A DNA stretch of 64,000 bases. It comes from a bacterium (GTDB lineage: Bacteria; Campylobacterota; Campylobacteria; Campylobacterales; Sulfurimonadaceae). Position numbers and translations under genes: made by a program. The notes beneath the pieces were generated by a model. It made no database searches and had not been told where the DNA came from. It saw nothing but the letters and a program-made list of their open reading frames with translations. The DNA is taken from contig JAHJJX010000029.1 of NCBI GenBank assembly GCA_018822665.1, positions 1-64,000 on the forward strand, written 5' to 3'. Within the stretch, counting starts at the first letter, position 1; every line of letters begins with the position of its first letter. Of the stretch, positions 273 through 59,909 are shown piece after piece.

Positions 273-283
273 GGCATGTGGAA
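273..283 (+). repeat. GGCATGTGGAA motif copy (exact), intergenic upstream of ung
   Basis: Exact 11-mer. Confidence 0.95.
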
Positions 284-345: not shown

Positions 346-1017
346 ATGGTTTTAAATGATAAATGGACTAAGTTTTTACGTGATGAATTAAATAAAGATT
401 ATTTTATTAAACTAAAGACTCATATAGATAATGAATATACGATAAGAACAATTTTTCCAAAATATAATGATATTTTCAGTGCATTTAATCTACTTTCTCC
501 ATGTGATGTAAAAGTTGTCATAATAGGGCAAGATCCTTATCATGGAGTAGATCAGGCTAATGGGCTTGCCTTTTCCGTTTGTGATGAGTGTAAAATTCCT
601 CCTTCTCTTTTAAATATTTTTAAAGAACTTAAGGAGGATATTGGTTGCAATATTCCGGCATGTGGAAATCTTAGTAAATGGGTGACAGAGGGTGTATTGC
701 TTATTAATAGTGTCTTGACGGTTGTTGAATCAAATGCAAATTCTCATAAAGATTTAGGTTGGGAAATTTTTACAGACAGTATAATCAAAAAACTCTCTCA
801 CGAGTATGAACATATCGTCTTTATATTATGGGGTAATCCATCTCAAAAAAAAGCTTTGTTTATAGATGAAAATAAACATTTTATTATCAAATCACCACAT
901 CCTTCACCTTTATCTTCTTACAGAGGATTTTTTGGTTCTAAGCCTTTTTCCAAAACGAATGAATATCTAAAGCTTCATCATAAAAAAGAGATTGATTGGT
1001 GTCTCAATGAGCTATAA
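346..1017 (+). CDS. ung: uracil-DNA glycosylase
   Basis: GQDPYHG active-site motif and HPSPLS motif of family 1 UDG. Confidence 0.97.
   Translation: MVLNDKWTKFLRDELNKDYFIKLKTHIDNEYTIRTIFPKYNDIFSAFNLLSPCDVKVVIIGQDPYHGVDQANGLAFSVCDECKIPPSLLNIFKELKEDIGCNIPACGNLSKWVTEGVLLINSVLTVVESNANSHKDLGWEIFTDSIIKKLSHEYEHIVFILWGNPSQKKALFIDENKHFIIKSPHPSPLSSYRGFFGSKPFSKTNEYLKLHHKKEIDWCLNEL
657..667 (+). repeat. GGCATGTGGAA motif copy (exact), inside ung
   Basis: Exact 11-mer; encodes ACGN frame. Confidence 0.95.
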
Positions 1018-2011: not shown

Positions 2012-3960
2012 TAACGAATGCCATTAAGTCTTAATAAGTTAGTTGGATTTGGCTCTCTTTGCATTAGCTCATAAAATAATACTTCCATACTTTTTGAACC
2101 TCCGCCACTAAGAACAATATCTAGATATTTTTTAGCTGTTTTTGAATCAAATATTCCTTCATCAACAACACAAAAAAAGGCATCCGCACTTAAAACTTCA
2201 GCCCATTTGTAACTGTAGTACCCAGCGGCATATCCGCCGGAAAAGATATGTGAAAAGCCATTTTGAAATTTATTGTAAGAAGGCGTTTTGATAAGTGCAG
2301 TTTCCTTTCTTAGACTGTCAATTAAATTTTGAATCGCATCTCCTTGATATACTTTTGTATGAAGAGTAAAATCAAAAATTGAAAATTCCAGCTGCCTTAA
2401 CATACCCATAGCCGATAAAAAGTTTTTACTTCTCACTAATTTATCTATCATCGCATCTGATATAGTTTCACCCGTTTCATGATGTGAGGCAAATAATTTT
2501 AATACATGCGGCTCATAAGCAAAATTTTCTAAAAATTGTGACGGAAATTCAACGGCATCCCATTCAACTCCATGAACGCCGCTTACTTCATATTCATCAA
2601 CTGCACTAAGCATATGATGAATTGCATGTCCCATTTCATGAAAGAATGTAACTACGTCATCATGTCTGAGCAGAGATGGATTCTCATGTGAAGAAGCTGG
2701 AAAATTGCAAACTATAAATGCAGATGCCAGATGTTCATTTGTTTTGTCGTCTTTACTGTGAGTTTGCCAGTTATGCATCCATGCACCGCCGCTTTTACCT
2801 TTTCTCGATTCTAAATCAAGGTAGAGTCTAGCTTTTAATTTTTCATTGAGATATAAATCATAAGAAGATGCTTTTTCGTTCCAAAGTTTTTCATCTGTTT
2901 TGATAAACTCAATACCGAAAAGTTTATTTAAAAATTCAAAGGTTCCATGAATAACACTTTTTTGCTCAAAATATGGGCGATATAACTCTTCATCTAAATC
3001 ATACTGTTCCCTTTTTAGTATTTCACTATAGTAGGCAGTATCAAAGCTTTGCAGAGGTTTGATACTCATTTTTTGAAGAGTTGCTAATTCTTCTTGTGCC
3101 TGTTTTTTGGACTTTTTTGCAAGTGTATGTAAAAAATCAAGCACAATATGCTCATCTTTAGCCATTTTGCTAGCCAGTGAATATGAAGCATAATTAGAAA
3201 ATCCAAGCAACTTACTCATCTCATCTCTCAGCAGCAATAGTTCATCAATAATCTGTGAATTCTGCGGAGCTCTCGTTACATACGCTTTATAAAGTTCTTC
3301 TCTGATTTTTTCATTTTTGCCATAGGTCATATAAGCTATGTATGAAGGCATTTGAAGAGTAAATCTGTATTTTGTAATTCCATCCTCTTCAAATTTTGCA
3401 TTTTTTATGTCACTTTCGGGTAGACCTTCTATATCTTTTTTATCACAAATAATGTATTCGTAAGCATTTGTTGCATCTAAAATATTTTGAGAGAAATTAT
3501 TGGATAATTCGCTTTTTTTTATATTAATTTCTTGAAGCCTTGCTTTTGTTTTTTTATCTAAATGTGCACCGCTGAGTTCAAAATTTAAAATATTGAGCTC
3601 TAAAACTCTTTTTTTTTCATGATTTAGGGTTGCTTTTTCATTTTCAAGTATCTTTTTATATGCTAAATAGATATCTAGATTTTGTGATAGTTTTGTTGAA
3701 TATTCTGTAATAATCGGCAAAGAATTTGCGTATACTTCTTGTGTTTTGTCAGAATTATTTACGGAGTTAATATGCGAAAGAGGAGTGAAAAATTGATCTA
3801 AGCTTTCTTCCATTATTTGCATTGGCTTCACAAAATTTATATAAGTCTTGTCGCTGATAGTTAATAGTTTATCAATATTATTATCGTTGTTTTCCAATCT
3901 TCTAGATAGATCTTCTATGAAATTATCTAAATCGATTTTAAATTCTAAAAATGTTGGCAT
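2011..3960 (-). CDS. M3 family metallopeptidase (oligopeptidase A-like)
   Basis: HEMGHAIHH zinc-binding motif, 649 aa. Confidence 0.93.
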   Translation of the reverse strand: MPTFLEFKIDLDNFIEDLSRRLENNDNNIDKLLTISDKTYINFVKPMQIMEESLDQFFTPLSHINSVNNSDKTQEVYANSLPIITEYSTKLSQNLDIYLAYKKILENEKATLNHEKKRVLELNILNFELSGAHLDKKTKARLQEINIKKSELSNNFSQNILDATNAYEYIICDKKDIEGLPESDIKNAKFEEDGITKYRFTLQMPSYIAYMTYGKNEKIREELYKAYVTRAPQNSQIIDELLLLRDEMSKLLGFSNYASYSLASKMAKDEHIVLDFLHTLAKKSKKQAQEELATLQKMSIKPLQSFDTAYYSEILKREQYDLDEELYRPYFEQKSVIHGTFEFLNKLFGIEFIKTDEKLWNEKASSYDLYLNEKLKARLYLDLESRKGKSGGAWMHNWQTHSKDDKTNEHLASAFIVCNFPASSHENPSLLRHDDVVTFFHEMGHAIHHMLSAVDEYEVSGVHGVEWDAVEFPSQFLENFAYEPHVLKLFASHHETGETISDAMIDKLVRSKNFLSAMGMLRQLEFSIFDFTLHTKVYQGDAIQNLIDSLRKETALIKTPSYNKFQNGFSHIFSGGYAAGYYSYKWAEVLSADAFFCVVDEGIFDSKTAKKYLDIVLSGGGSKSMEVLFYELMQREPNPTNLLRLNGIR

Positions 3961-3966
3961 GTGGAA
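3956..3966 (+). repeat. GGCATGTGGAA motif copy (exact), spans start codon of M3 peptidase gene
   Basis: Exact 11-mer. Confidence 0.95.
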
Positions 3967-3974
3967 ATTCCTTT

Positions 3975-5081
3975 TTAATCTTCTTCTCTTTTAAGTTTTA
4001 TTGCACCGAACTTTTCTATTAAAAAAGCATCATATTTATCTGAGTATTTTAAAAGTCTGTCAATCGCAATTTTACCTTCTTTTAGTGTTAATGAGGAGTC
4101 TATAATTAAATACGAGATGTAAATACTGTTTTCATTTATGGAAAATTGCAAATAGGAGAGTTTCTTATTTTCTTCAAGTAGATAATCATAGAGTTCGTTT
4201 ATATTGCTTTGTGGAATTCTGCAAAGTTGAGAATCTCCTATTATTACTCCGTTTTCATAGTAATTTATTTCCACTCTTGCGCTTCCATGGTCAACTCTCC
4301 ATGAAACTTGTGAGCGTCTTGCAAGTGTTACATTAATATCTAAAGAAGTTAAAATGTCTTCTAAAAGTTTTGTTGCTCCGGTAGGTTTGTATCCCTTTCT
4401 TCTTAATTTTGCTACTTCAAGTTTGGTTCCACATGCCGGACAATAATCATTGATAATATCTTTTTCATTAATATAATTTTTACAAGAGGGGCATTTAATG
4501 ATATTTGTTTTTGCTAATTTTTTATAGCCTTGTATAGCCTCTTCAACATAAAAATAGGGTAGAGCAAAGCCTACATTATTTGAGTTTTGTATGATAAAAG
4601 TATTGACGCCGATGACCATTCCATTTTCGTTTAGAAGCGGTCCTCCGCTGTTGCCTGGATTGATTGCAGCATCCATCTGAATATATTCTAACTCACCTTG
4701 AAGTCTGGATGCTTTTGAAACTATACCTTCTGTCGCAGTGTAATTGAGACCGTATGGATGGCCGATGGCTATGGCAATATCCCCGTCTAGAACAATTTTT
4801 GTTGCTAATTTCAATGGATTTTTCGGCATGATGGATGCTTTGTCCGTTGTTATAAAATCTGTACTTATAAAGGCTATGTCATAATTAGGGTCATCATAAA
4901 CAACTTTTGCAATACATCTTTTAATCTTTTTAGATGAGATAACAACCTCTTTTAAACCACTTGCAACATGGGAGTTCGTAATGATTAAATCATCAATTAA
5001 AAAGCCGCTTCCGCTTCCATAAGGTGTCATAATTTGTATAATGCTGTCAAGATATGTATCTAATATTAGCTGAGTATTCAT
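3975..5081 (-). CDS. trypsin-like serine protease with zinc-ribbon segment
   Basis: NPGNSGGPLLNENG catalytic Ser motif; SHVASG; CPSCKNYINEKDIINDYCPACG zinc ribbon. Confidence 0.85.
   Translation of the reverse strand: MNTQLILDTYLDSIIQIMTPYGSGSGFLIDDLIITNSHVASGLKEVVISSKKIKRCIAKVVYDDPNYDIAFISTDFITTDKASIMPKNPLKLATKIVLDGDIAIAIGHPYGLNYTATEGIVSKASRLQGELEYIQMDAAINPGNSGGPLLNENGMVIGVNTFIIQNSNNVGFALPYFYVEEAIQGYKKLAKTNIIKCPSCKNYINEKDIINDYCPACGTKLEVAKLRRKGYKPTGATKLLEDILTSLDINVTLARRSQVSWRVDHGSARVEINYYENGVIIGDSQLCRIPQSNINELYDYLLEENKKLSYLQFSINENSIYISYLIIDSSLTLKEGKIAIDRLLKYSDKYDAFLIEKFGAIKLKREED
4427..4437 (-). repeat. GGCATGTGGAA motif copy (exact), inside serine protease gene
   Basis: TTCCACATGCC on + strand. 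Confidence 0.95.
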
Positions 5082-6516: not shown

Positions 6517-7335
<819 letters not shown>

Positions 7336-19233: not shown

Positions 19234-19601
19234 TAAAAAAAGAGGGATTCCCATATTCCTTTAATTCATCTGCATGTTCCACATGCCAAGGAAAATGTTG
19301 TACCGGCGAGAGCGGGTATGTTTATGTGAATAAAGAAGAGATAGAAAATATCGCCAATTTAATAGATTTTGAAGTTGAAGATTTTATGGATCATTATCTT
19401 ATTAAAAATGGGTACAGATACTCATTGCGAGAGATAAATGTTAACGGCTCCCATGAATGTATATTTTATGACAGTGAATCCAACGGATGTATCATTTATC
19501 AAGCGCGACCTTCTCAGTGTATCACGTTTCCATTTTGGGATTATTATAAAAATAGAGTGGATGAATTGAAGCAAGAATGCCCGGGTATCGTAGATGTATA
19601 G
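19221..19601 (+). CDS. YkgJ family cysteine cluster protein
   Basis: CSTCQGKCCTG and C...IYQARPSQCITFPFW motifs. Confidence 0.88.
   Translation: MSDLVKKEGFPYSFNSSACSTCQGKCCTGESGYVYVNKEEIENIANLIDFEVEDFMDHYLIKNGYRYSLREINVNGSHECIFYDSESNGCIIYQARPSQCITFPFWDYYKNRVDELKQECPGIVDV
19277..19287 (-). repeat. GGCATGTGGAA motif copy (exact), inside YkgJ-family gene
   Basis: TTCCACATGCC on + strand. Confidence 0.95.
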
Positions 19602-20874
19602 GATTTTATTTCTTTTCATTTTAGTACTTTTTTTTGGCGGCTGCGTAGGAAGTACGCCAAAAGTAATACAGGCAAATCAAAAAGTATTTGAAGATGAAGA
19701 TGCGTATATTCTTTTTGCATTAAGAGCAGAGCAGTTAAAAGAGCATAAGGCATCTGCAAGCATCTTTAACACGCTTTATGAAAAATCTGGGAAAAAAGAG
19801 TATATTTACCGTTCTTTGCAAAATGATTTGGTTGCGGGAGATAATGAAAACGTCGTAAAAAGAATCGATGAGATTACAAAAGGCGCGTTAGATGATTTTA
19901 TTCTCATGAGACTCAAAATTGTCGCATTGGCAGGACTTGAAATGCTTGAAAAAGCTAAAAATCTTGCTCTGTCTTTGGTGGAGTCTTCCCATGAAGTAGA
20001 TGACTACATCTTAGTGAGTGATATTTATGTAAAAGAAAAAAAATTCGATACCGCTCTTAAATATTTAGAGAGTGCGTATGCAAAAAACTATAATGAAAAA
20101 ATTCTTGATAAGATGTCCATTATTTTGTATGTTAATTTACAAAGAAAAAGTGAAGCAATAGCCCAGCTGGAAACACATGCTCGCATGCATAGCTGTTCGG
20201 TTCTTATTTGTTCAAGACTCATCGGATTTTACAGCAATGAAAACGATATAGAGGGGCTGTTGTCAGTCTATTTAAGACTTTATGAACTGGAATCAAACGA
20301 AGAGATAGCAAAAAAAATTATTCAAATTTATCAATATAAAAAAGAGTACATACAATTGATGGATTTTTTGGAACAAAGCAATACAGACGATGCTTTACTT
20401 TTGCAACTCTATACAAGTGCTAAAAACTATAAAAAAGCAGCAGATTTGGCCGATAAACTTTATACATTTACAGGTGAAATAAATTATTTAGGGCAAAGCG
20501 CAATTTTTGAATATGAAAGCAGTGTAGATAAAAATGACGGGTCAATGCATACGAGAGTATTGGAAAAATTGAAAAAAGTTTTGCTTCAGGAAGAAAATTC
20601 ACTTTATCTCAATTATTATGGATATATAATGATAGACCATAATATTGATGTAAAGTCAGGTATTGAATATATTCAAAGAGCTTTAAACTTTGAGCCAAAT
20701 TCAGCCTATTATCTAGATTCTCTTGCGTGGGGATATTATAAACTTGGAAACTGTGTGAAAGCTAAAAAAATAATGGATAAGGTTGTAAAGCTTGAGGGCG
20801 GAAACGACAAAGAGGTCGTGTCTCATATTGAGAGTATCGATAACTGTTTAAAACTTAAAAAAGGTAAAAAATGA
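19594..20874 (+). CDS. TPR-repeat lipoprotein
   Basis: Lipobox LFFGGC; C-terminal TPR-like repeats. Confidence 0.75.
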
Positions 20875-21656
20875 TTTTAGATGACATTATAAAAAAAACC
20901 AAAGAGGATTTACTCAAAAGGGAAAAAGAGTTTTCATTGGACTGGTTAGGTCGTTCGTTAGCGTTTAATGCAAGAGCTCCAAGAGATGTTATTCCGTATT
21001 TAAAAGCAACAGAAGAAGACCCGTATAGAATTATTGCGGAAGTTAAAAAAGCTTCTCCTTCCAAAGGTGTTATTCGTGAAAATTTTGACCCCCTTGCCAT
21101 AGCTCAAAGCTATGAAAGGGGAGGGGCTAGTGCCATCTCTGTTTTAACCGAACCACATTTTTTTCAAGGTTCATTGGATTACCTTGGGGGCATTAGAAGA
21201 TATGTAGGCATTCCACTTTTGAGAAAGGATTTTATCGTTTCAAAATATCAGATTTTAGAAGCTATGGTTCACGGGGCTGATTTTATTTTGCTCATCGCTG
21301 CCGCACTGAGTAAAAAAGACTTAAAAGATTTGCTGAATTATACAAGACACTTGGGAATGGAAGCTTTGGTTGAGGTGCATGATAAGTCAGACCTTATAAA
21401 AGCAATCTATGCTGGGAGTGATATTATAGGGATAAATCATAGAAATTTACAAACTTTCGAGATGAATATGAACTTATGTTATGAGTTGATTCCTATGATT
21501 CCAAACGGAAAAATTATTGTAGCCGAGAGCGGAATTTATGAGCATGGACAGCTGGAAGATTTATCTAAGGCAGGAGTAGATGCATTTTTGGTCGGTGAAT
21601 CTTTGATGAGGCAAGACAATGAAGAAGAGGCTCTTAAAAAATTAAAATTCGGTTGA
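20871..21656 (+). CDS. trpC: indole-3-glycerol phosphate synthase
   Basis: [39 protein letters not shown] motifs. Confidence 0.96.
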
Positions 21657-21702: not shown

Positions 21703-21727
21703 GGCATGTGGAAGTGTTCCACATGTC
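21703..21727. repeat. Head-to-head pair of the 11-bp motif, hairpin between convergent trpC and yqeY
   Basis: GGCATGTGGAA-gtg-TTCCACATGtC; 11-bp arms with a single G-T pairing, 3-nt loop. Confidence 0.9.
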
Positions 21728-21744: not shown

Positions 21745-22188
21745 TTAGGCTAAAAGTGTTTTTACACATTCATTGATTCTTTTTCCATCCGCGCGGCCAG
21801 CTAATTCTTTTGAGGCGACGGCCATGATTTTACCCATATCCTTAACACTTAGCGCCCCTACTTTTTTGATAATTTCATGAAGGGCGGAGGTAAGTTCTTC
21901 ATCCGTTAATTGCAGAGGAAGATAAGGGGTGTATACTTTTATCTCATTGAGTTCGATTTGTAATAAATCATCTCTGCCGGCATCTCTGTATTGTGTTGCG
22001 GCATCATCTCTTCTTTTTATTTGAGTTTGAATAATTTTTATTATATCATCATCGTTTAATTCTTTTCTCTCATCCACTTCTATCTGCTTAAAAGCACTTG
22101 TTAATAAACGAAGAGCATCTCTTTTTTTTGTATCTTTTGCTTTCATAGCATCTTTTATATCTTGATTGATTATTTCTCTTAAAGACAT
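21745..22188 (-). CDS. GatB/YqeY domain-containing protein
   Basis: MSLREIINQDIKDAMKAKDTKKRDALRLL N-terminus, C-terminal VKDMGKIMAVASKELAGRADGKRIN. Confidence 0.92.
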   Translation of the reverse strand: MSLREIINQDIKDAMKAKDTKKRDALRLLTSAFKQIEVDERKELNDDDIIKIIQTQIKRRDDAATQYRDAGRDDLLQIELNEIKVYTPYLPLQLTDEELTSALHEIIKKVGALSVKDMGKIMAVASKELAGRADGKRINECVKTLLA

Positions 22189-27280: not shown

Positions 27281-27291
27281 GGCATGTGGAA
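27281..27291 (+). repeat. GGCATGTGGAA motif copy (exact), divergent intergenic region
   Basis: Exact 11-mer. Confidence 0.95.
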
Positions 27292-27986: not shown

Positions 27987-30614
27987 CTATTTTTGAAGCG
28001 AGCGGAGTTGCTCTAAAACTTTTTCTTGTTTAGCTTTTGCATCAGCGAGTGCTTCTCGATTTTTAGCAAGTACGTCTTCAGGCGCATTTGCTACGAATCT
28101 TTCATTGTTTAACATTCCTCCGAGTTTGTCTATCTCTTTTTGCAATTTCTCATCCTGTTTTTCAAGTTTTGAGATGATTGAGCTTAAATCAATAGAGTCT
28201 CTCGGAATAAAAGTCTCACATGTATCCGCAATATCACTGACCGCATTGTCAATTTTTGTGTCTGTGAACTCTAAAACTTCAACCTTCGCAAGTCGAGTGA
28301 TAAAGGGAAGCATCATCTCTTTGTCTTTGACTGAAATACCGTCTATTTTTACATAGGCTTTTTCAATTTTTTGGTTGGCTAAATCAACTAAAACTTTGGC
28401 GCGTCTGATAGATACGATAGCATCCATAATAATTTCAAATTTCTTTTCGTCTTTCTCGCGCTTTTTGGTTTTAGTAGGAAATTTCATGACCATGATAGAT
28501 TCGGCATTTTCCAAGGAAGTTCCCGATAGCTCATGATGCAGATATTCCGTGATAAAGGGCATAAAGGGGTGTAAAAGTTTCATAGCCTCTTTATAAATCG
28601 CTCCAAGTTCCACTATGGAAGCTTTGTCTGCTTTACTTAGCTCAATTCCCCAGTCACAAAACTCATTCCATAAAAAGCGATACATTACAGTTGCGGCATC
28701 ATTAAATCTGTATTCATCAAGAAAGGCACGAACCTCTTTTGTAGCAAGATTTAAACGAGATACCATATACTTTCCAAGGTCAGTCGTCATGCAAAAACTT
28801 TGCATATCAGGGAATGTGTCTACATTCATCTGTAAGTATTTTGATGCATTGTAGAGTTTATTTGTAAAGTTACGGTTGAGTTCAAGTTTCTCTGTACTCA
28901 TCCTAATATCACGACCCTGCGCAGCACTTATTGCAAGAGTAAAACGAAGTACATCGGCGCTGTATTTGTTTACCATATCCAGAGGGTCGATTACATTGCC
29001 TTTGGACTTGCTCATCTTGTCCCCTTTTTCATCGCGGACAAGAGCATGAAGGTAGATGTGGTTAAATGGAAGTTGTCCGTTGAAACTCTCGCCCATCATC
29101 ATCATTCTAGCTACCCAGAAGAAGAGGATATCAAAACCTGTAATGAGCAATGAGTTTGGATAGAAATCCTTCATATCATTGGAATGAAAAAGTTTATCCA
29201 TTTCCGTATCGCCGTTACCCCATCCTAAAGTTGAAAAAGGCCATAAAGCAGAGCTGAACCATGTATCTAAAACATCAGGGTCCTGAGTCAGATTCTTGGA
29301 TGCACATTTTGGACACGAGGAAGGATTTTCATCTTGGGTTGCAAACTCATGCTCACAATCTCCGCAGTAAAAGACAGGAATTTGGTGTCCCCACCAAAGT
29401 TGACGGGAAATACACCAGTCTCTTAAGTCACCCATCCAAGAGTTGTAAGAGTTTATCCAGTGAGGCGGGAAGAATTTTGCTTCCCCATTGTTTGTTTTCT
29501 CAATGGATTTTTTTGCAACTTCGCTTCGTACAAACCATTGTTTTGAGATGTACGGTTCTACGATATTTTTACATCTGTAGCAATGTCCAACCTGATGCTT
29601 ATGGTCTTCTATTTTAACCATAAACCCTTCTTCTTCAAGTCTTTTGACGATGATAGCGCGCGCTTGAAGTCTTTCTAAACCTTTAAACTCGCCGGCATAG
29701 TCATTTAAAATACCCTTCTCATCAAAGATAGTTATGAACTCCAAATCGTGTCTTTTGCCAACTTCATAATCGTTTTGGTCGTGGGCAGGAGTAACTTTAA
29801 CCACACCCGTTCCAAAATCCATAGCCACATGCGTATCAGCGATGATGGTAACTTCTCTATCGAGCAGCGGAAGACGGATTTTTTTGCCGATTAAAGCTTT
29901 ATAACGCTCATCCTCAGGATGAACCATAACTGCTGTATCTCCGAAGTAAGTTTCAGGTCTGGTAGTTGCAACTTCCACATGCCCGCTGCCATCGGCAAAA
30001 GGGTATTTAATGTGGTAAAACTTTCCATCATGGTCTTCATGTTCAACTTCGATGTCACTTAAAGCACCATCATGCGTGCACCAGTTTACCATGTAGTTCC
30101 CACGAACAATAAGCCCTTGATTGTAAAGATGGACAAAGGCTTCTTTGACAGATTTTTGAAGTCCCTCATCCATGGTAAAACGCTCACGTTCCCAAGCCGG
30201 AGATACCCCCATTTTACGAAGCTGGTCTGTCATGATTCCCGCAGATTCCGCCTTCCATGCCCAAGCACGTTCCAAAAACTTCTCACGGCCTAATTCTTCT
30301 TTGGTTGTACCTTCTGCCAAAAGTTGTTTTTCAACTACATTTTGCGTAGCAATTCCTGCATGGTCGGTTCCCGGTTGCCAGAGAGTTTTATAGCCGTCCA
30401 TTCTTTTGTAGCGGGTGATAATATCTTGAAGCGTAAAGGTAAGCGCATGACCTATATGCAATCTGCCTGTAACATTCGGCGGAGGCATCATTATAGAGAA
30501 GTTTTTCCCCTCTTCTTGAATGGCTTTATTGCCATCAATCTCAAAATACTTTCTATCTTCCCATAGTTTATAATATTTATTTTCTATTTTTTGTGGTTCG
30601 TAGCTGTTTGACAT
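27987..30614 (-). CDS. valS: valyl-tRNA synthetase
   Basis: PPPNVTGRLHIGHA and KMSKSKGNVIDP motifs. Confidence 0.97.
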   Translation of the reverse strand: MSNSYEPQKIENKYYKLWEDRKYFEIDGNKAIQEEGKNFSIMMPPPNVTGRLHIGHALTFTLQDIITRYKRMDGYKTLWQPGTDHAGIATQNVVEKQLLAEGTTKEELGREKFLERAWAWKAESAGIMTDQLRKMGVSPAWERERFTMDEGLQKSVKEAFVHLYNQGLIVRGNYMVNWCTHDGALSDIEVEHEDHDGKFYHIKYPFADGSGHVEVATTRPETYFGDTAVMVHPEDERYKALIGKKIRLPLLDREVTIIADTHVAMDFGTGVVKVTPAHDQNDYEVGKRHDLEFITIFDEKGILNDYAGEFKGLERLQARAIIVKRLEEEGFMVKIEDHKHQVGHCYRCKNIVEPYISKQWFVRSEVAKKSIEKTNNGEAKFFPPHWINSYNSWMGDLRDWCISRQLWWGHQIPVFYCGDCEHEFATQDENPSSCPKCASKNLTQDPDVLDTWFSSALWPFSTLGWGNGDTEMDKLFHSNDMKDFYPNSLLITGFDILFFWVARMMMMGESFNGQLPFNHIYLHALVRDEKGDKMSKSKGNVIDPLDMVNKYSADVLRFTLAISAAQGRDIRMSTEKLELNRNFTNKLYNASKYLQMNVDTFPDMQSFCMTTDLGKYMVSRLNLATKEVRAFLDEYRFNDAATVMYRFLWNEFCDWGIELSKADKASIVELGAIYKEAMKLLHPFMPFITEYLHHELSGTSLENAESIMVMKFPTKTKKREKDEKKFEIIMDAIVSIRRAKVLVDLANQKIEKAYVKIDGISVKDKEMMLPFITRLAKVEVLEFTDTKIDNAVSDIADTCETFIPRDSIDLSSIISKLEKQDEKLQKEIDKLGGMLNNERFVANAPEDVLAKNREALADAKAKQEKVLEQLRSLQK
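29973..29983 (-). repeat. GGCATGTGGAA motif copy (exact), inside valS
   Basis: TTCCACATGCC on + strand. Confidence 0.95.
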
Positions 30615-36539: not shown

Positions 36540-38624
36540 TTGCCTCTTTCTCGTTTAAATCAAGAACAGTATGCCGCTGCTACTTCCTTTCATTCACAAA
36601 ATCTTATCATCGCATCTGCGGGAACGGGAAAAACTTCCACAATAGTAGGAAGAATCGCGCATCTCTTAGGTGCAGGTGTAAAACCGCATGAAATTTTACT
36701 CCTTACTTTTACAAATAAAGCTGCCGCAGAGATGGTAGAACGTGTTGCTTCTTTTTTTGGAAACGAGGTGGCTTCAAAAATAGATGCCGGAACTTTTCAT
36801 GCGGTGAGTTACAGATGGCTGAAAAAACAAGATAAAAAAGTAGTTTTAAAACAACAACGGGAATTGAAAACACTTTTTAGAAGTGTCTATGAAAAACGCT
36901 CCTTTATGCACATCGATGCAGAGACTACCCCTTATGGGGGAAATTATCTTTATGATTTATACTCTTTTTATCAAAATACGGAACTAGAAAATAATTTTGA
37001 GAGCTGGATAATAGAAAAATATCCTGAGCATGATTTGTTTGCGATGATTTATGCAGATATAGTGGATGAGTTTGAAACACTTAAAAAAGAGTACGGATTT
37101 TTGAACTTTAATGATTTGCTTATAAATTTTAGAGATTTGTGTAAAAGTAAAGAACTGGGTTATAAAGAGGTTCTGGTTGATGAGTATCAAGATACAAATG
37201 CACTTCAGGGAACGCTTATAGAAGCTATGAATCCGCCCTCACTGTTTTGTGTCGGGGATTATGACCAGAGTATTTATGCTTTTAACGGTGCGGATATTTC
37301 CATTATAGGTTCATTTTCCACGAAGTTTCCACATGCCAAGGTGCATACCCTTACAAAAAATTACCGTTCAACGCTTGCGATACTTTCTTTGGCAACAAAG
37401 GTGATTGAGCATAATGACAGAATCTATCCAAAGCAGTTGGAAGTTACAAGAAATAAAGAGGCACAGGCACCAAAACTTCTGGCGTATGATGAGTTGTTTG
37501 ACCAATACCATGCAATGGCCGCACAGATACGAGACTCGCAAACACCAAGAGAAGAGATAGCTGTCATCTACAGAAACAACTCCTCGGCGGACGGGATAGA
37601 GGTAGGATTAAGAGAGTTAAATATACCGTGCAAAAGAAAAGGGGGAACAAGTTTTTTTGATTCTAAAGAAGTGAAATCTGTTCTTGACCTTTATACGCTT
37701 CTTGTAAATGAATCGGATATGATGGCTTTTATCCACCTGTTTGAGTATGCAAGGGGAATAGGAAGCGCAATGGCAAAAGAGATGTATATTGCTTTAAAAA
37801 CTCTTGGCCACGGCTCTATATTTTATGGATTGTATGCTCCCGATGTATCGATTAGCAATCCTTTTGAGAAAAGAAAACTTAATCATCAGTTAGGTCTTTT
37901 TGATGATTTCTTGGAATTAGGAGCCGTAGGAAAATTTGCAAAGCTTGGTTTTGAAGACAAGTTTATGAAAAACCCAATTTTAAAGCATCCAAAACTCTCA
38001 AAAGACGGAGCGGTTTTTTTACACGATTTTTATTGTTTGTACAGAGATTTAAAAGGGATAAAACAGCCCCGCAGTATTATAAAAAAGATAGTAGCATCTG
38101 CTTTGTTTAAGCATATTGTTGAACTTTTGGCCGCTAAAAGAGCAACACTCAAAGATGGAAGTATTGATGAAAAGCTTCAAGAGGGGGCACGCACCAACAT
38201 AGCCAGAAAAGGATTATTGCTAGAAGAATTGTCCAAGCCTTACAGTGAACACGAAAGATTTTTGAATGCCATGATTTTAGGTTCTCAGGATTTAACGCAG
38301 GGAGAGGGGGTGAATCTGCTCAGTGTCCATGCTTCAAAAGGTTTGGAATATAAAGAGGTCTATGTGGTTGATTTAATGGATGGAAGATTTCCAAACAGAA
38401 AACTGATGCAAAGAGGCGGTTCTTTGGACGAAGAAAGACGTTTATTTTACGTGGCAGTGACAAGAGCAAAAGACATTTTGTATCTAAGCTTTGCAAAGTT
38501 CGATAAGATAAAAAAGATGGACTTCGTGCCATCTTTGTTTTTGTATGAGGCAGGGCTAGTCCCCAAAGATGAAGCTTACAGGGCCTTAGTTTTAAAAGAG
38601 GCAGAAAAAGAAGATAAAGAATAA
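36540..38624 (+). CDS. UvrD/Rep/PcrA-type ATP-dependent DNA helicase
   Basis: ASAGTGKTSTIVGRI Walker A, VDEYQDTNALQ, LLSVHASKGLEYKEVYVVDL, EERRLFYVAVTRAK. Confidence 0.95.
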   Translation: MPLSRLNQEQYAAATSFHSQNLIIASAGTGKTSTIVGRIAHLLGAGVKPHEILLLTFTNKAAAEMVERVASFFGNEVASKIDAGTFHAVSYRWLKKQDKKVVLKQQRELKTLFRSVYEKRSFMHIDAETTPYGGNYLYDLYSFYQNTELENNFESWIIEKYPEHDLFAMIYADIVDEFETLKKEYGFLNFNDLLINFRDLCKSKELGYKEVLVDEYQDTNALQGTLIEAMNPPSLFCVGDYDQSIYAFNGADISIIGSFSTKFPHAKVHTLTKNYRSTLAILSLATKVIEHNDRIYPKQLEVTRNKEAQAPKLLAYDELFDQYHAMAAQIRDSQTPREEIAVIYRNNSSADGIEVGLRELNIPCKRKGGTSFFDSKEVKSVLDLYTLLVNESDMMAFIHLFEYARGIGSAMAKEMYIALKTLGHGSIFYGLYAPDVSISNPFEKRKLNHQLGLFDDFLELGAVGKFAKLGFEDKFMKNPILKHPKLSKDGAVFLHDFYCLYRDLKGIKQPRSIIKKIVASALFKHIVELLAAKRATLKDGSIDEKLQEGARTNIARKGLLLEELSKPYSEHERFLNAMILGSQDLTQGEGVNLLSVHASKGLEYKEVYVVDLMDGRFPNRKLMQRGGSLDEERRLFYVAVTRAKDILYLSFAKFDKIKKMDFVPSLFLYEAGLVPKDEAYRALVLKEAEKEDKE
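37327..37337 (-). repeat. GGCATGTGGAA motif copy (exact), inside UvrD-type helicase gene
   Basis: TTCCACATGCC on + strand. Confidence 0.95.
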
Positions 38625-45484: not shown

Positions 45485-46668
45485 TGTGTTATAGCCTGCG
45501 CCGCCGCGTATCCGCTTGCCCAGGCAAAGGCAAAATTGTATCCGCCCCTGCGCCCGAGCACATCTAAAACTTCTCCGCAAAAGTAAAGATTTTTTTGTTT
45601 GAGAGATTCCATGGTTTTTGGATTAATTTCACGTACATCCACTCCGCCTCCGCCCACTTCGGCATGGCGAAAACCGTGCGTAGCGCTCACTTCAAATCTC
45701 CAGTTTAGCATTGCATTTGCTATTTTTTTAGCGAGTTTTGTATGTATCTCCTCTGCTTTGAGGGCATGTGGAATTTTTAAATCTTCTAAAAGAAAATGAG
45801 CAATTTTTATAGGAATCATTCCTGCTAAAATATCCGTTACTGAAAATTTCGGCATATTTTTAGCGAGGTTGCTCATATGAGCCGAGAGCTTTTGGGCGTT
45901 GAAGGCAGGAAGCAAATTAATAGAGATGCCGACATGCTCAAAGTTCATTAAAGCCATACTGGCCCTTTGGGAGAGATCCAAAACGGCAAAACCGGAGACC
46001 CCATAGTTTGTAAAGAGAATATCGCCTTGGCATGTGGAATCTTTTTTATGGTTTATAAGCAGAGTAACTTCCCCATACATTTTAGCACCGGACATCTTGT
46101 GTGCAATTGTAGAATCAAGATGAAGCTGCACCAAAGAGGGGTAGGTCGGAATAATGTTATGCCCAAACTCTTTTGCAAAGCTAAGTCCGTCCTCGTTTCC
46201 TCCAAGATGACTTGCCGCCTGCGAGCCTGTTGCAACAACAACGACATCGTATTTTGCAAGTAAAGTTTTTATCTCTGTGATTTTTGTGTCGGTATGTATT
46301 TTTACTCCAAGAATTTTGGCATAGTTAAGTAAAAGTGAAGCAACACTTTTTGCTTCATTGCTAAGAGGATAAACTCTGCCGTCCTCTTTTACATCAAGTA
46401 AAAGGCCAATTTCAGAAGCAAACTTCTCAAACTCTTTAAAGCCAAAATTCTCAAGGGAGGACTGAACAAAGGAGGGATGATTGCTAAAGAAATCATTGGG
46501 GCTGATTTCTCGGTTTGTAATATTGCAACGGCCGTTGCCCGAGACCAAAATTTTCTTTGCACATTTGTCATTTTGTTCATAAACATCCACATCCAGCGAA
46601 GCTTTTGCACAAAAAATTGCACAAAGAAGACCCGAAGCACCAGCACCGATAATCGCAACTTTTTTCAT
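45481..46668 (-). CDS. HI0933-family NAD(P)/FAD-dependent oxidoreductase
   Basis: AIIGAGASGLLCAIFCAKA, GNGRCNITN, YNFAFAWASGYAA. Confidence 0.92.
   Translation of the reverse strand: MKKVAIIGAGASGLLCAIFCAKASLDVDVYEQNDKCAKKILVSGNGRCNITNREISPNDFFSNHPSFVQSSLENFGFKEFEKFASEIGLLLDVKEDGRVYPLSNEAKSVASLLLNYAKILGVKIHTDTKITEIKTLLAKYDVVVVATGSQAASHLGGNEDGLSFAKEFGHNIIPTYPSLVQLHLDSTIAHKMSGAKMYGEVTLLINHKKDSTCQGDILFTNYGVSGFAVLDLSQRASMALMNFEHVGISINLLPAFNAQKLSAHMSNLAKNMPKFSVTDILAGMIPIKIAHFLLEDLKIPHALKAEEIHTKLAKKIANAMLNWRFEVSATHGFRHAEVGGGGVDVREINPKTMESLKQKNLYFCGEVLDVLGRRGGYNFAFAWASGYAAAQAITH
45763..45773 (+). repeat. GGCATGTGGAA motif copy (exact), inside HI0933-family gene
   Basis: Exact 11-mer. Confidence 0.95.
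46029..46039 (+). repeat. GGCATGTGGAA motif copy (exact), second copy inside HI0933-family gene
   Basis: Exact 11-mer. Confidence 0.95.
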
Positions 46669-46669
46669 A

Positions 46670-48895
46670 TCAGAGACTCACAACTTTGGCGCCGAATCCG
46701 CCTAAATGCTGTGGAGCATCTTCAAACTTTTTAACTTTAGGGTGGGCTGTTAAAAAGTTTTTTACAGCATAAGAGAGTTTTCCCGTTCCTATGCCGTGGT
46801 ACACGATAACTTCATCCCAGCCTGAAATAAGGGCATCCGAAATAAACTTATCTAACACTTCTTCAGCTTCTTCAGCCCGCATGCCATGGAGGTCGCATTT
46901 TAATCCGGCTCTTTTTTCTACATTGACTTTAAGGTCCGTTTTTGATTTTTGTTTGAGTATCTCGGTATGTTTGAGTTGCGCGGTTTTGACACGAAGCCGC
47001 ATCCCCTCAACTTCTATCATCGCATCTTTTTTATCCGTTAAAGAGATAATAATTCCTTTTTTGGAATGGTACTTGACAGCGTCCCCGATTTTAAATTCCA
47101 CATGCCGGACTAAAGGCTCTTTATTTGGAGGGGGAAGTTGTTTATTTGCTTTGTTCATGGCTCTGTGAATTGAAGCACTGTCCCCGGCTTTTGCGGCTGT
47201 TTTTGCTTCACTGATGGCAATCTCGTAACTTCTTTTGAGTGCTTCTTTTTGCTCTTGGAGTTCCAAAAATATCGCTTCTCTTTCTTCTTTTAAAGCCAAC
47301 TCTTTTTTTCTTAAATCGTCTAGCTTTTCATCCACTTTTATATGTTTTTGTTTGAGTTCGCGCTCAAGTTGCGAGCCTCTTTCAATGAGAAGATTGAGCT
47401 TTTCGCTATTGTCGCCATAAACGTTTTTTGCTTCATTGACGATAGCGTTGGAAATTCCGTATCTGCTGGCTGTTTCAAAAGCGTAACTTTTGCCGATAAT
47501 TCCCTGCATAAACTCATAGGTGGGAAGTCTTAGCTTTTCATCGTAAATTGCCGCCATAAGCTCTACATCGTCACGGTCTGCCATAAGAGCGGCAAGTCTT
47601 TTGTGGTGCGTTGTCACCACCACCTTTTGCCCTCTTTTGATTAAGTCATCCAAAATCACCTTAAAAAGTGCCGCTGCTTCATCGCTGTCTGTTCCGAGTT
47701 CTATCTCATCCACTCCCACTAAAGCGGATTTATATTCAAAAATTTTTGAAAATTCCTGCATTCTTCCCGCAAAAGTCGAGATATCATTTTTGACATTTTG
47801 AGGGTCATCAATAACGGCTAAAATACTTTTGAATGAACCTATGTGGGATGTATGCTCATTTAGCTTCATAGGTATAATATATTTTGCCATGAAAGCAGAT
47901 GCCAAGATGGACTTTAAAAGCATTGTTTTACCGCCGGCATTCACCCCTGTAATCATGAGTATATTTTTACTAAAATTCACATGGATAGGTTTCGCGTGTT
48001 GCAGAGCAGGGTGAATAAAACCGTTCAATACGATATGAGAATCATTTTTTGATTTTACAAGTTGCAGATTTTTGCTTCTTGCAAATAAGACTCTTGCCTG
48101 ATAATTGTCAAACTTATCAAACTCTTTGTCAATAAAGGCGATAAATGGCTGAATCTCAGCCAGTTTTTCTGAAAAACTTTTGGCATAAGAGTAAAAAATG
48201 CTCTCCCGCTCTTGCTGGATATATCTGATTTTTTCTTTTGTTTTTAAGATATTATCGGGAGAGACATAAAAAAAACCGCCGCTGCTTCTGGCAATGACTG
48301 CTCCTTTGAGAACATGGTTGAAACCGCCGCGAACCAAAAGACACTCCTCGTCATTGATAAAGTGAACCTGCGTATCGACAAGATATCCTGTTATCTTTGA
48401 GCTTGAGATAAGCCTTTTAAGTGAACCGCTCATCTCATTTTTATATTCTTTAATTCTCTGACTTAATCCAAAAAGAGTTTCATCAAGGGCTTCATTAAAC
48501 AAACCGTCTTGGTTAAAATACTCTTCAATCTCTATAAATCTCTCATCAATGATTATCTTATGCATCCACTCACCGATGATTCCTTCTAATGCACGATTTT
48601 TAAAATATCTGAAATATCTCACTACTTTCACAATTTCAAATATTTGTTCAAAATTTAAAACACCTCTTTTTTTGAGATGTGCTTTTATATTTGAAAAATC
48701 CGCAGTTTTTTGAGGTGCTTTAAACTCTATGGTATCGAGTGCTTTTATGTAGCGAAAGTGGAGTTCTTGGTCTCCTTCTATGTAAAGAGGGGTGTCTCTT
48801 GAGAAAAAATGTTTAAAGGAGTTTATATGATCATTTAAATCGAGTTGTTCAATAAGCAACTCGATTTTAGATTTATTAGAAGGAGCTACTCGCAC
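46670..48895 (-). CDS. mutS2: endonuclease MutS2
   Basis: MutS ATPase ITGVNAGGKTMLLKS and C-terminal Smr domain LDLHG-like CDLHGMRAEEA...VYHGIGTGKL. Confidence 0.93.
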   Translation of the reverse strand: MRVAPSNKSKIELLIEQLDLNDHINSFKHFFSRDTPLYIEGDQELHFRYIKALDTIEFKAPQKTADFSNIKAHLKKRGVLNFEQIFEIVKVVRYFRYFKNRALEGIIGEWMHKIIIDERFIEIEEYFNQDGLFNEALDETLFGLSQRIKEYKNEMSGSLKRLISSSKITGYLVDTQVHFINDEECLLVRGGFNHVLKGAVIARSSGGFFYVSPDNILKTKEKIRYIQQERESIFYSYAKSFSEKLAEIQPFIAFIDKEFDKFDNYQARVLFARSKNLQLVKSKNDSHIVLNGFIHPALQHAKPIHVNFSKNILMITGVNAGGKTMLLKSILASAFMAKYIIPMKLNEHTSHIGSFKSILAVIDDPQNVKNDISTFAGRMQEFSKIFEYKSALVGVDEIELGTDSDEAAALFKVILDDLIKRGQKVVVTTHHKRLAALMADRDDVELMAAIYDEKLRLPTYEFMQGIIGKSYAFETASRYGISNAIVNEAKNVYGDNSEKLNLLIERGSQLERELKQKHIKVDEKLDDLRKKELALKEEREAIFLELQEQKEALKRSYEIAISEAKTAAKAGDSASIHRAMNKANKQLPPPNKEPLVRHVEFKIGDAVKYHSKKGIIISLTDKKDAMIEVEGMRLRVKTAQLKHTEILKQKSKTDLKVNVEKRAGLKCDLHGMRAEEAEEVLDKFISDALISGWDEVIVYHGIGTGKLSYAVKNFLTAHPKVKKFEDAPQHLGGFGAKVVSL
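47096..47106 (-). repeat. GGCATGTGGAA motif copy (exact), inside mutS2
   Basis: TTCCACATGCC on + strand. Confidence 0.95.
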
Positions 48896-49215: not shown

Positions 49216-50543
49216 TAAAGAGTTCCTCTTATTTGATACGTTATATCTCCTGCGCCGAAACTGATAATTAAACCATTGTCTACGGTTCGGAGAACTTGTT
49301 TGTCTTTGACTATGGATATTTTATTGTCAGTTCTTTGGATGCTATCGGCCATGGTCAGATTATATTGTTTGAATTTTTCTTTAAAGTCAATATCTCTAGT
49401 AGCTTCACCTGCCGACCAAACAGGTAAAATGATAAGTTCCTGTGCGCCCTCAAAACACTTGATAAATTCTTCTAAATTATCAATAGTACGAGAATATTTA
49501 TGTGGCTGCCAAATAGCCGTAATTTTATCAAAACCTTTGAGAAGCGCATATTCTTTGACAGATTGGAAGGTGGCTTTTATCTCTGTAGGATGGTGCCCGT
49601 AGTCATCAATAATAACACTGTTCTCCTCCAAGCCTACGATATCAAAGCGTTTTTTAATCCCTTTGAATGTGAGTAAATTAGCGCGTATTTCTTCTATGTC
49701 CATACTGTCATTGGCTGCAAGTATAGCCAAAGAAGCATCTATGGCGATATGTTTGCCAAATCCCCATACATCAAAACTTCCCAAATCTTTGAGGGTAAAT
49801 CTTGTGTGCGGCTCATCCTCTATAAGGATAAACTCTATCTCCGTAATATCCGTGTTTGGATAAAGCCAGGTTGCCTCGATTTCCCCTACTAATTTACTTA
49901 AAAACGGGTCTTCGGCATTTAATACACGAAGCGTTGCCGAATTGATAAAAGTACGGTAGGAATCATAAAATAATTCATAGTTATAATCATAGTATTCCAT
50001 GTGCTCCGGTTCGGCATTGATAACTATGGAGCAGTATGGATTGGAGTTTATAAAACTGCCGTCACTCTCATCCGCTTCAAAAAGCATAACATCTGTTGTC
50101 GCATCGTATCTTACATTTGAACCGAAGGCTTTTGATTCTGCACCGATAATCGCAGAGCCCTGCATAATGGCCGTGAGAATTGCCGTTGTTGTGCTTTTGC
50201 CATGTGCTCCTGCAACAGAGTAGACTTTTTTGTCATCCAAGATTTGCAGAAGCGCCTCGCGGCGGGCTAATACTTCTATCTCTTTTGTTTTTGCTTCAAT
50301 TATTTCCGGATTGTCGGGACGGATAATTGCAGAGTGCACTATGAGATCTTGATCCGTGACAGCATCCGCGGCATGTGGAACTGTGACTTTTATTCCCAGT
50401 TTTTTCAGCTTTTGAGTGATAACCGTGTCAGAAATATCAGAGCCGCTTACTTCATGCCCTTTATAATGCATGTACTGTGCGAGTCCTGAAATACCGATGC
50501 CGCCAATTCCAATAAAATGAATTTTGATTTTTTGAGTTATCAT
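49215..50543 (-). CDS. murC: UDP-N-acetylmuramate-L-alanine ligase
   Basis: HFIGIGGIGISGLAQ, AGAHGKSTTTAI, DDYGHHPTEI. Confidence 0.96.
   Translation of the reverse strand: MITQKIKIHFIGIGGIGISGLAQYMHYKGHEVSGSDISDTVITQKLKKLGIKVTVPHAADAVTDQDLIVHSAIIRPDNPEIIEAKTKEIEVLARREALLQILDDKKVYSVAGAHGKSTTTAILTAIMQGSAIIGAESKAFGSNVRYDATTDVMLFEADESDGSFINSNPYCSIVINAEPEHMEYYDYNYELFYDSYRTFINSATLRVLNAEDPFLSKLVGEIEATWLYPNTDITEIEFILIEDEPHTRFTLKDLGSFDVWGFGKHIAIDASLAILAANDSMDIEEIRANLLTFKGIKKRFDIVGLEENSVIIDDYGHHPTEIKATFQSVKEYALLKGFDKITAIWQPHKYSRTIDNLEEFIKCFEGAQELIILPVWSAGEATRDIDFKEKFKQYNLTMADSIQRTDNKISIVKDKQVLRTVDNGLIISFGAGDITYQIRGTL
50370..50380 (+). repeat. GGCATGTGGAA motif copy (exact), inside murC
   Basis: Exact 11-mer. 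Confidence 0.95.
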
Positions 50544-51061: not shown

Positions 51062-52185
51062 TCCTTGATTCTATTGAGGGCATCTTTTGTATTTGTTTCA
51101 TTTTCGACTAAAGCTATGCGGATAAAGTTTTTTCCGGGATTGTATCCGTTTTTGTCATCTCTTGCCAAGTATTCTCCCGGAAGCACTTTTACATTGTACT
51201 CTTTGTAGAGTTTTTTTGTAAATTCCAAAGGATTTTTTACTTTCAACCAGACGTAAAACGTGGCATGTGGAATCTCCACGCCAAGAATTTCTTGTGCTAG
51301 CTCAAAGTTTCTTTTGTAAACTTTTCGTGAGACTTCAACATGGGCTTCATCGCTCCAAGCTTCGGCTGCAGCGCTTTGAAGAGGAAGAGGAGAAGCACAT
51401 CCGACATAGGTTCTGTAGTCCATGTATTGTTTTAAAATAGCTGCATCACCGGCTATGAAACCAGAACGAAGTCCCGGAGCAGAGGAGCGTTTGGATATAG
51501 AATTGATGACTATAACATTTTTAAAATCTGTATTTCCTACATGTGTAGAAGCTTCGAGAAGTGAAGGAATAGGTTTGTCTGTGAAGATTTCGCTGTAACA
51601 TTCATCATTGAGCAAAACAAAATTATGTTTTAAGCTCAGCTTCACCCAGGTTCCAAGCTCGTCAATGCTGAGTGTTGAAGATGTAGGATTATTCGGAAAG
51701 TTGAGTATCACAAGGTCACAGGTGCGTAACTCATCTTCGTTTATTTCAGGTTTAAACTTGTTTTGTTCATTTAAATTCATAAGAATCATTTTGGCTCTTG
51801 AAGCGATTGCCGCACCTTCATATATCTGATAAAAAGGGTTTGGAAAAGCCATAACGGGTTCTGTTTTGTCAAAAAGTAAAAACTGGGGGAAGTTAAACAA
51901 TACTTCCCTTGTCCCAAAAGTTGGAATGATTTGCGCATTGCTCAGTTTGGTGTTGAATCTTTTTAATATGAATTCTCTTTGGGCTTCTCTTAGATTGTCT
52001 TCACCCGCTGTTTTAGGGTATTTTCTCAACAAAGAAGAATTTTTGCAAAGTGATTTTTGTATAAAATCAGGAGTTTCAAACTGGGGTTCGCCGATGGTTA
52101 AAGCACATGGGGCGTATGCAGCATTTGGAGTGATATCCGAGAGTAAATTATTTAGTTTTTCAAATGGATAGGGTTCAAAGTTCAT
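51049..52185 (-). CDS. class I/II aminotransferase, likely succinyldiaminopimelate transaminase
   Basis: LNFPNNPTSS, NSISKRSSAPGLRSGF PLP-lysine region. Confidence 0.88.
   Translation of the reverse strand: MNFEPYPFEKLNNLLSDITPNAAYAPCALTIGEPQFETPDFIQKSLCKNSSLLRKYPKTAGEDNLREAQREFILKRFNTKLSNAQIIPTFGTREVLFNFPQFLLFDKTEPVMAFPNPFYQIYEGAAIASRAKMILMNLNEQNKFKPEINEDELRTCDLVILNFPNNPTSSTLSIDELGTWVKLSLKHNFVLLNDECYSEIFTDKPIPSLLEASTHVGNTDFKNVIVINSISKRSSAPGLRSGFIAGDAAILKQYMDYRTYVGCASPLPLQSAAAEAWSDEAHVEVSRKVYKRNFELAQEILGVEIPHATFYVWLKVKNPLEFTKKLYKEYNVKVLPGEYLARDDKNGYNPGKNFIRIALVENETNTKDALNRIKECLA
51262..51272 (+). repeat. GGCATGTGGAA motif copy (exact), inside aminotransferase gene
   Basis: Exact 11-mer. Confidence 0.95.
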
Positions 52186-53167: not shown

Positions 53168-53602
53168 ATGAAAGTATCGCTAAGCATAGTTTTAGCTCTC
53201 CTTATTCTAGGATGCGGCGAAGATGTTAAGAAAGAGCCTCTCAGCGCTGTTCAAAATGCTCAAGAAATGCCAAAAGAGGAGCGTGTTAAAGAACTTAAAG
53301 AGAGAATCGTCGAACCTGTTCAAGCAGCGACAATCCAAAGAACCATTGCTCCGACTCCTCTAAAAACAGGGGAAACAATTTATAAGGCATGTGGAAACTG
53401 TCATGGAGCAAATGCCCAAAAAGCGGCTTTAAATAAATCTCAAATCATTCAAGGTTGGAATGCTGAAAAAATTGCCGATGCCTTGAATGGGTATAAAGAG
53501 GGAAGTTATGGCGGAGCTATGAAAGCAGTTATGAATACGCAGGCTTCTAAGTTAAGTGATTCAGAGATTCATCTTGTTTCTGAGTATATTTCAAAGTTAT
53601 AA
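53168..53602 (+). CDS. c-type cytochrome lipoprotein
   Basis: Lipobox LLILGC; YKACGNCHGANAQKAALNKS. Confidence 0.85.
   Translation: MKVSLSIVLALLILGCGEDVKKEPLSAVQNAQEMPKEERVKELKERIVEPVQAATIQRTIAPTPLKTGETIYKACGNCHGANAQKAALNKSQIIQGWNAEKIADALNGYKEGSYGGAMKAVMNTQASKLSDSEIHLVSEYISKL
53386..53396 (+). repeat. GGCATGTGGAA motif copy (exact), inside cytochrome c gene, next to the heme motif
   Basis: Exact 11-mer. Confidence 0.95.
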
Positions 53603-59869: not shown

Positions 59870-59896
59870 CAGAGATGGTTTTATGATGTGGCTCTT

Positions 59897-59907
59897 GGCA
59901 TGTGGAA
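59897..59907 (+). repeat. GGCATGTGGAA motif copy (exact), in the short gap between convergent genes
   Basis: Exact 11-mer. Confidence 0.95.
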
Positions 59908-59909
59908 GT

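Follow-up and report, generated by a model that had tools for sequence, protein, structure and literature searches.

The word GGCATGTGGA(A) is a good candidate for a DNA uptake sequence of the Sulfurimonas lineage in which it was found, and its inverted pairs have probably been reused as hairpins at the ends of genes. The genome was placed in Sulfurimonas by its relatives. Neisseria and Haemophilus recognise their own DNA during uptake by words of this kind (DUS and USS, respectively), and the well-characterised cases of abundant uptake sequences come mainly from the Neisseriaceae and Pasteurellaceae. We found no earlier report of uptake sequences in Sulfurimonas or Campylobacterota in the literature searched, and our best reading is a DUS/USS-like sequence, which would be new for the Campylobacterota as far as that literature extends. 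If this is true, it would be a third, independent case of abundant uptake sequences, in a free-living sulfur-oxidising genus, and its presence in some species and absence from close relatives would make it possible to ask how such systems arise, how they change dialect and which receptor they use. A further question would be why inverted pairs come to lie at gene ends where no U-tract is added.

Abundance, sequence and placement of the motif

The commonest 11-mer by far in the window (the whole 64,000-nucleotide stretch of DNA that was analysed) was GGCATGTGGAA, with 17 exact copies against approximately 0.014 expected from base composition. Across the 2,507,095 bases of the genome it was counted 665 times, or approximately 265 times per Mb, and its reversed-letter control once; 330 copies lie on the (+) strand and 335 on the (−) strand, showing no strand bias. 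Besides the copy in the hairpin described below, the following sites were identified in the window by sequence match:

273..283, + strand, single exact motif site
657..667, + strand, single exact motif site
3956..3966, + strand, single exact motif site
4427..4437, − strand, single exact motif site
6524..6534, + strand, single exact motif site
19277..19287, − strand, single exact motif site
27281..27291, + strand, single exact motif site
29973..29983, − strand, single exact motif site
37327..37337, − strand, single exact motif site
45763..45773, + strand, single exact motif site
46029..46039, + strand, single exact motif site
47096..47106, − strand, single exact motif site
50370..50380, + strand, single exact motif site
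51262..51272, + strand, single exact motif site
53386..53396, + strand, single exact motif site
59897..59907, + strand, single exact motif site, inside the convergent gap 59870-59909

The core GGCATGTGGA is nearly all-or-none. In a 453-kb sample, 118 exact 11-mers stood against 0–3 copies of most single-base variants, and the exceptions were variants of GGCATGTGGAA at position 9 (C, 11 copies) and position 11 (T, 20; G, 13; C, 7). The same sample gave a weak flanking consensus, CT(T/C) 5′ and AT 3′ of the core. Motif copies share only approximately 11–16 bp; homology stops beyond approximately 15 bp, and the flanks are unrelated.

Context and pair-partner statistics were drawn from 664 kb of genome stretches picked regardless of pairs, with genes for the context classes called by a simple longest-ORF method; the earlier 453-kb sample had been partly picked for known pairs and was excluded from pair statistics. 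In the 664 kb, coding sequence and divergent gaps both had 0.26 motif sites per kb, tandem gaps had 1.27, and convergent gaps had 2.70, approximately 10 times the density of coding sequence. A like context was found in other motif-rich species (4.6 per kb in convergent gaps versus 0.15 in coding sequence). Within genes, where 163 of the 220 classified sites lie, the motif has no clear coding-strand bias and prefers the frame xxT CCA CAT GCC (Pro-His-Ala).

Some stretches of the genome carry no motif. A 20-kb stretch (L135, G000:C20:180001-200000) encoding PcfJ, a conflict-type histidine kinase, a NERD helicase and AAA proteins looks like a defence island, and the sample's largest motif-free gap, 25.7 kb (L169-L171, G000:C41:77833-103520), contains a bacterial cellulose synthase operon.

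The trpC–yqeY hairpin and inverted pairs

Convergent trpC and yqeY are separated, stop to stop, by an 88-bp gap that contains a hairpin built of two opposed motif copies. The features of this site are:

20871..21656, + strand, trpC, indole-3-glycerol phosphate synthase (IGPS), ending upstream of the hairpin (PF00218, E 2.7e-86)
21703..21713, + strand, first hairpin arm, exact motif GGCATGTGGAA (sequence match)
21714..21716, no strand, 3-nt hairpin loop GTG (sequence and fold)
21717..21727, − strand, second hairpin arm, motif copy reading GACATGTGGAA with one mismatch (sequence and fold)
21745..22188, − strand, yqeY, converging on the hairpin from the opposite side (PF09424, E 3.7e-48)

Positions 21703-21727 read GGCATGTGGAA-GTG-TTCCACATGTC, and the preliminary description, which had reported a head-to-head motif pair in this gap, was exact in both sequence and coordinates. 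The 11-bp stem and 3-nt loop that it gave apply to the trpC transcript, for which folding yielded an 11-bp stem including one G-U pair, at −14.3 kcal/mol and a z-score of −4.6; in the yqeY transcript the second-arm mismatch becomes A-C, and the stem is shortened to 9 bp. An Rfam search of the site returned no match, and a U-tract terminator was found there on neither strand.

Across the genome the 11-mer forms 21 perfect head-to-head pairs (spacers of 0–30) versus approximately 1.4 expected, and the 10-mer forms 23 perfect tail-to-tail pairs versus about 2.2. These counts come from the genome-wide search for paired sites that the preliminary description had called for, and the dozens of perfect pairs dispose of the possibility, raised there, that the window's pair is the only one. 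When spacers were limited to ≤10, 17 head-to-head (11-mer) and 14 tail-to-tail (10-mer) pairs were found, with no orientation preferred. In the 664 kb, an inverted partner (≤2 mismatches, within 30 bp) accompanied 28 of the 58 sites between genes versus 4 of the 163 within coding sequence (p 2e-15). Given dozens of pairs and partners that are mostly intergenic, the window's pair is not unique, and pairing belongs to gene-end sites.

Hairpins formed by motif pairs have a mean of −24 kcal/mol. In the genome sample, a U-tract followed these hairpins at 13 of 56 ends, versus 22% at random positions. The motif is flanked by CTT rather than AAA, so that pairing creates no T-tail, and accordingly U-tracts are no commoner than at random; the doubt previously voiced about an intrinsic terminator was thus well placed. 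We rejected an intrinsic (Rho-independent) terminator, as the stable hairpin is present but the U-tract is missing. Several strong non-motif hairpins at this genome's convergent junctions are likewise without a U-tract, and gene-end hairpins lacking one may therefore be a habit of this organism.

We found an inverted motif pair at the trpC–yqeY junction in 7 of 7 motif-rich genomes in which the two genes adjoin (the window's genome, L053, L063, L081, L094, L116 and L120) versus 0 of 12 motif-poor species counted with the two genes likewise adjacent (Fisher p 2e-5, kinship ignored). The spacers of these pairs vary among species, and the L120 junction, in a genome with a looser motif form, has the compensated variant AGCATGTGGAA-T-TTCCACATGCT, in which both arms are altered. 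In many motif-poor species the junction holds a hairpin whose sequence is unrelated. To judge from sequence, nothing argues more strongly for a role of the stem than the recurrence of the pair, with the motif apparently serving as the material from which the stem is built. Between trpC and the hairpin, L081 and L116 also have common sequence around CTTGGCACCCCAAGAGTACTTCCTCG...TTTACTCACAGC, with a near copy in L051, which is possibly a repeat element.

Distribution of the motif and competence genes

In a survey of 229 genomes of the family, GGCATGTGGAA occurred in tens to approximately 950 copies in a minority of Sulfurimonas species and in 0–8 copies in the rest; in 398 genomes drawn from the phylum, the motif was found in no other genus. 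Those motif-rich genomes that bear a name are assemblies from metagenomes or single cells. In a trpC tree, which represents one gene and is poorly resolved, the motif-rich species are scattered, requiring 7 changes, at least 3 of them forced by well-supported branches. The palindrome TTACATGTAA/CTACATGTAG is abundant in several relatives by trpC (L056, L066, L106, L119 and L150-L157). It contains the same CATGT core, is enriched in convergent and tandem gaps, and is possibly a dialect of the window's motif.

A further word, AAACGCAG, reaches 373–2333 copies per genome in L054, L062, L058, L113, L104 and nine other Sulfurimonas, with others near 50, and the genomes in which it abounds are never those with GGCATGTGGAA. 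At the loci examined it lies almost only in coding DNA, with a lagging-strand skew of 103 to 60. This coding-only, strand-skewed placement speaks against another dialect, and instead of an uptake word AAACGCAG may be a polar signal for recombination.

The genome encodes ComEC (C24:17003-17785) and a type II secretion (T2SS) operon with pseudopilins, and a pilin search gave nine matches, with further pilin groups besides the T2SS operon. DNA uptake in Campylobacter jejuni is performed by a T2SS/T4P-type apparatus (PMC10046745). Of 136 genomes of the genus, 126 carry ComEC, and two pilin candidates occur in motif-rich and motif-poor relatives alike; with ComEC near-universal and the two pilins independent of the motif, nothing that we found accounts for the patchy distribution or marks a receptor.

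Candidate functions and comparison with known systems

The enrichment of the motif after genes, strongest between convergent genes, the strong hairpins formed by its inverted pairs and the recurrence of these pairs between trpC and yqeY would also suit a motif that is primarily a transcript-end element (terminator or 3′-end stabilising), unconnected to DNA uptake. We consider this unlikely, however, as the 163 sites within genes are nearly all single copies that form no hairpin, a stem can be built without any fixed 11-base word, and hairpins with different sequences suffice both in motif-poor species and at other junctions of this genome. Hundreds of copies along the chromosome, many of them within genes, would agree with a signal for recombination or chromosome handling (Chi-like, KOPS-like or a nucleoid-protein site). 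Such a signal is very unlikely: by GC skew 104 sites fall on the leading strand and 117 on the lagging strand, so that the motif has no leading-strand bias and is not polar as Chi and KOPS are, and we rejected a Chi-like role on this symmetry. Nor would a signal of this kind predict inverted pairs or gene-end enrichment, and the motif is patchy within one genus.

We regard as highly improbable a methylase or regulator target that is tolerated or selected genome-wide, such as an uptake methylation mark as in C. jejuni. It is general knowledge that methylase sites are usually shorter than an 11-bp non-palindromic word and are normally neither enriched a thousandfold nor paired, whereas the phylum does have a known self-mark based on modification, as C. 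jejuni uptake needs methylated RAATTY (PMC10046745). That a transposase has spread the motif as a short mobile or REP-like repeat is extremely improbable, even if inverted pairs at gene ends recall the generally known placement of REP/BIME elements: the common sequence extends over just approximately 11–16 bp, most copies are single and lie in genes in varied frames, and the unrelated flanks led us to reject a mobile repeat.

In the uptake reading that we favour, a DNA receptor on the cell surface, belonging to the competence machinery, would prefer motif-bearing DNA; the proposed machinery is ComEC and the T2SS/pseudopilus operon, which is of the general type that Campylobacter uses. Recombination of the preferred DNA would build up the motif wherever it is tolerated, in both orientations. 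Two opposed copies would offer a ready 10–14-bp stem, and inverted pairs would therefore be retained in the short gaps after genes, where the hairpin would mark or protect the transcript end; the pair at 21703-21727 would serve trpC and yqeY as a common 3′-end hairpin. That uptake is biased and is the cause, which protein would be the receptor, and any action on transcripts are inferred. More tentatively, the Campylobacterota may have evolved an uptake-sequence system of their own, independently of Neisseria and Pasteurellaceae. Its receptor would be unrelated to ComP, inverted pairs would be reused as transcript ends without U-tracts, and one genus would contain several dialects, namely GGCATGTGGAA, the looser GCATGTG(A/G)A and the palindromic TTACATGTAA.

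The motif has the features of the DUS/USS type, comprising hundreds of copies, strand symmetry, few near-misses, gene-end enrichment, inverted close pairs, patchy variants among relatives and in-gene sites, in a genome that encodes competence machinery (ComEC, a T2SS operon and pilins). The parallel to DUS and USS drawn in the preliminary description therefore holds on every genome-statistical feature tested, and an uptake function would follow by analogy. The density of exact motifs is below that of typical DUS/USS genomes.

Among known systems, C. jejuni is of the same phylum and discriminates self-DNA in uptake through a T2SS/T4P-like apparatus (PMC10046745). It differs in that a 6-bp degenerate palindromic site must be methylated, with no reliance on a long over-represented word, and no uptake sequences had been identified in it (PMC3458841). 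The USS of Pasteurellaceae have similar statistics, and their close pairs favour one orientation weakly or not at all (50 to 25 in H. influenzae and 6 to 8 in H. ducreyi; PMC1852404). The word differs, however, and we saw here neither the A-run that USS have on the 5′ side nor their AT-rich 3′ extension. Like the DUS of Neisseria, the motif is abundant, short and non-palindromic, equally frequent on the two strands and enriched between genes, with inverted close pairs, above all in convergent gaps, and related variant words among relatives (PMC3630211, PMC1852404); inverted pairs are present in all DUS dialect genomes (PMC3630211). It differs in word and phylum, and uptake and a ComP-like receptor are putative here. 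The pairs of Sulfurimonas are also without T-tails. In N. meningitidis close-pair orientations stand at 226 to 5, a preference explained by an A-run that is turned into a T-tail in the first orientation (Kingsford et al. 2007, PMC1852404), whereas the corresponding pairs of Sulfurimonas are nearly balanced.
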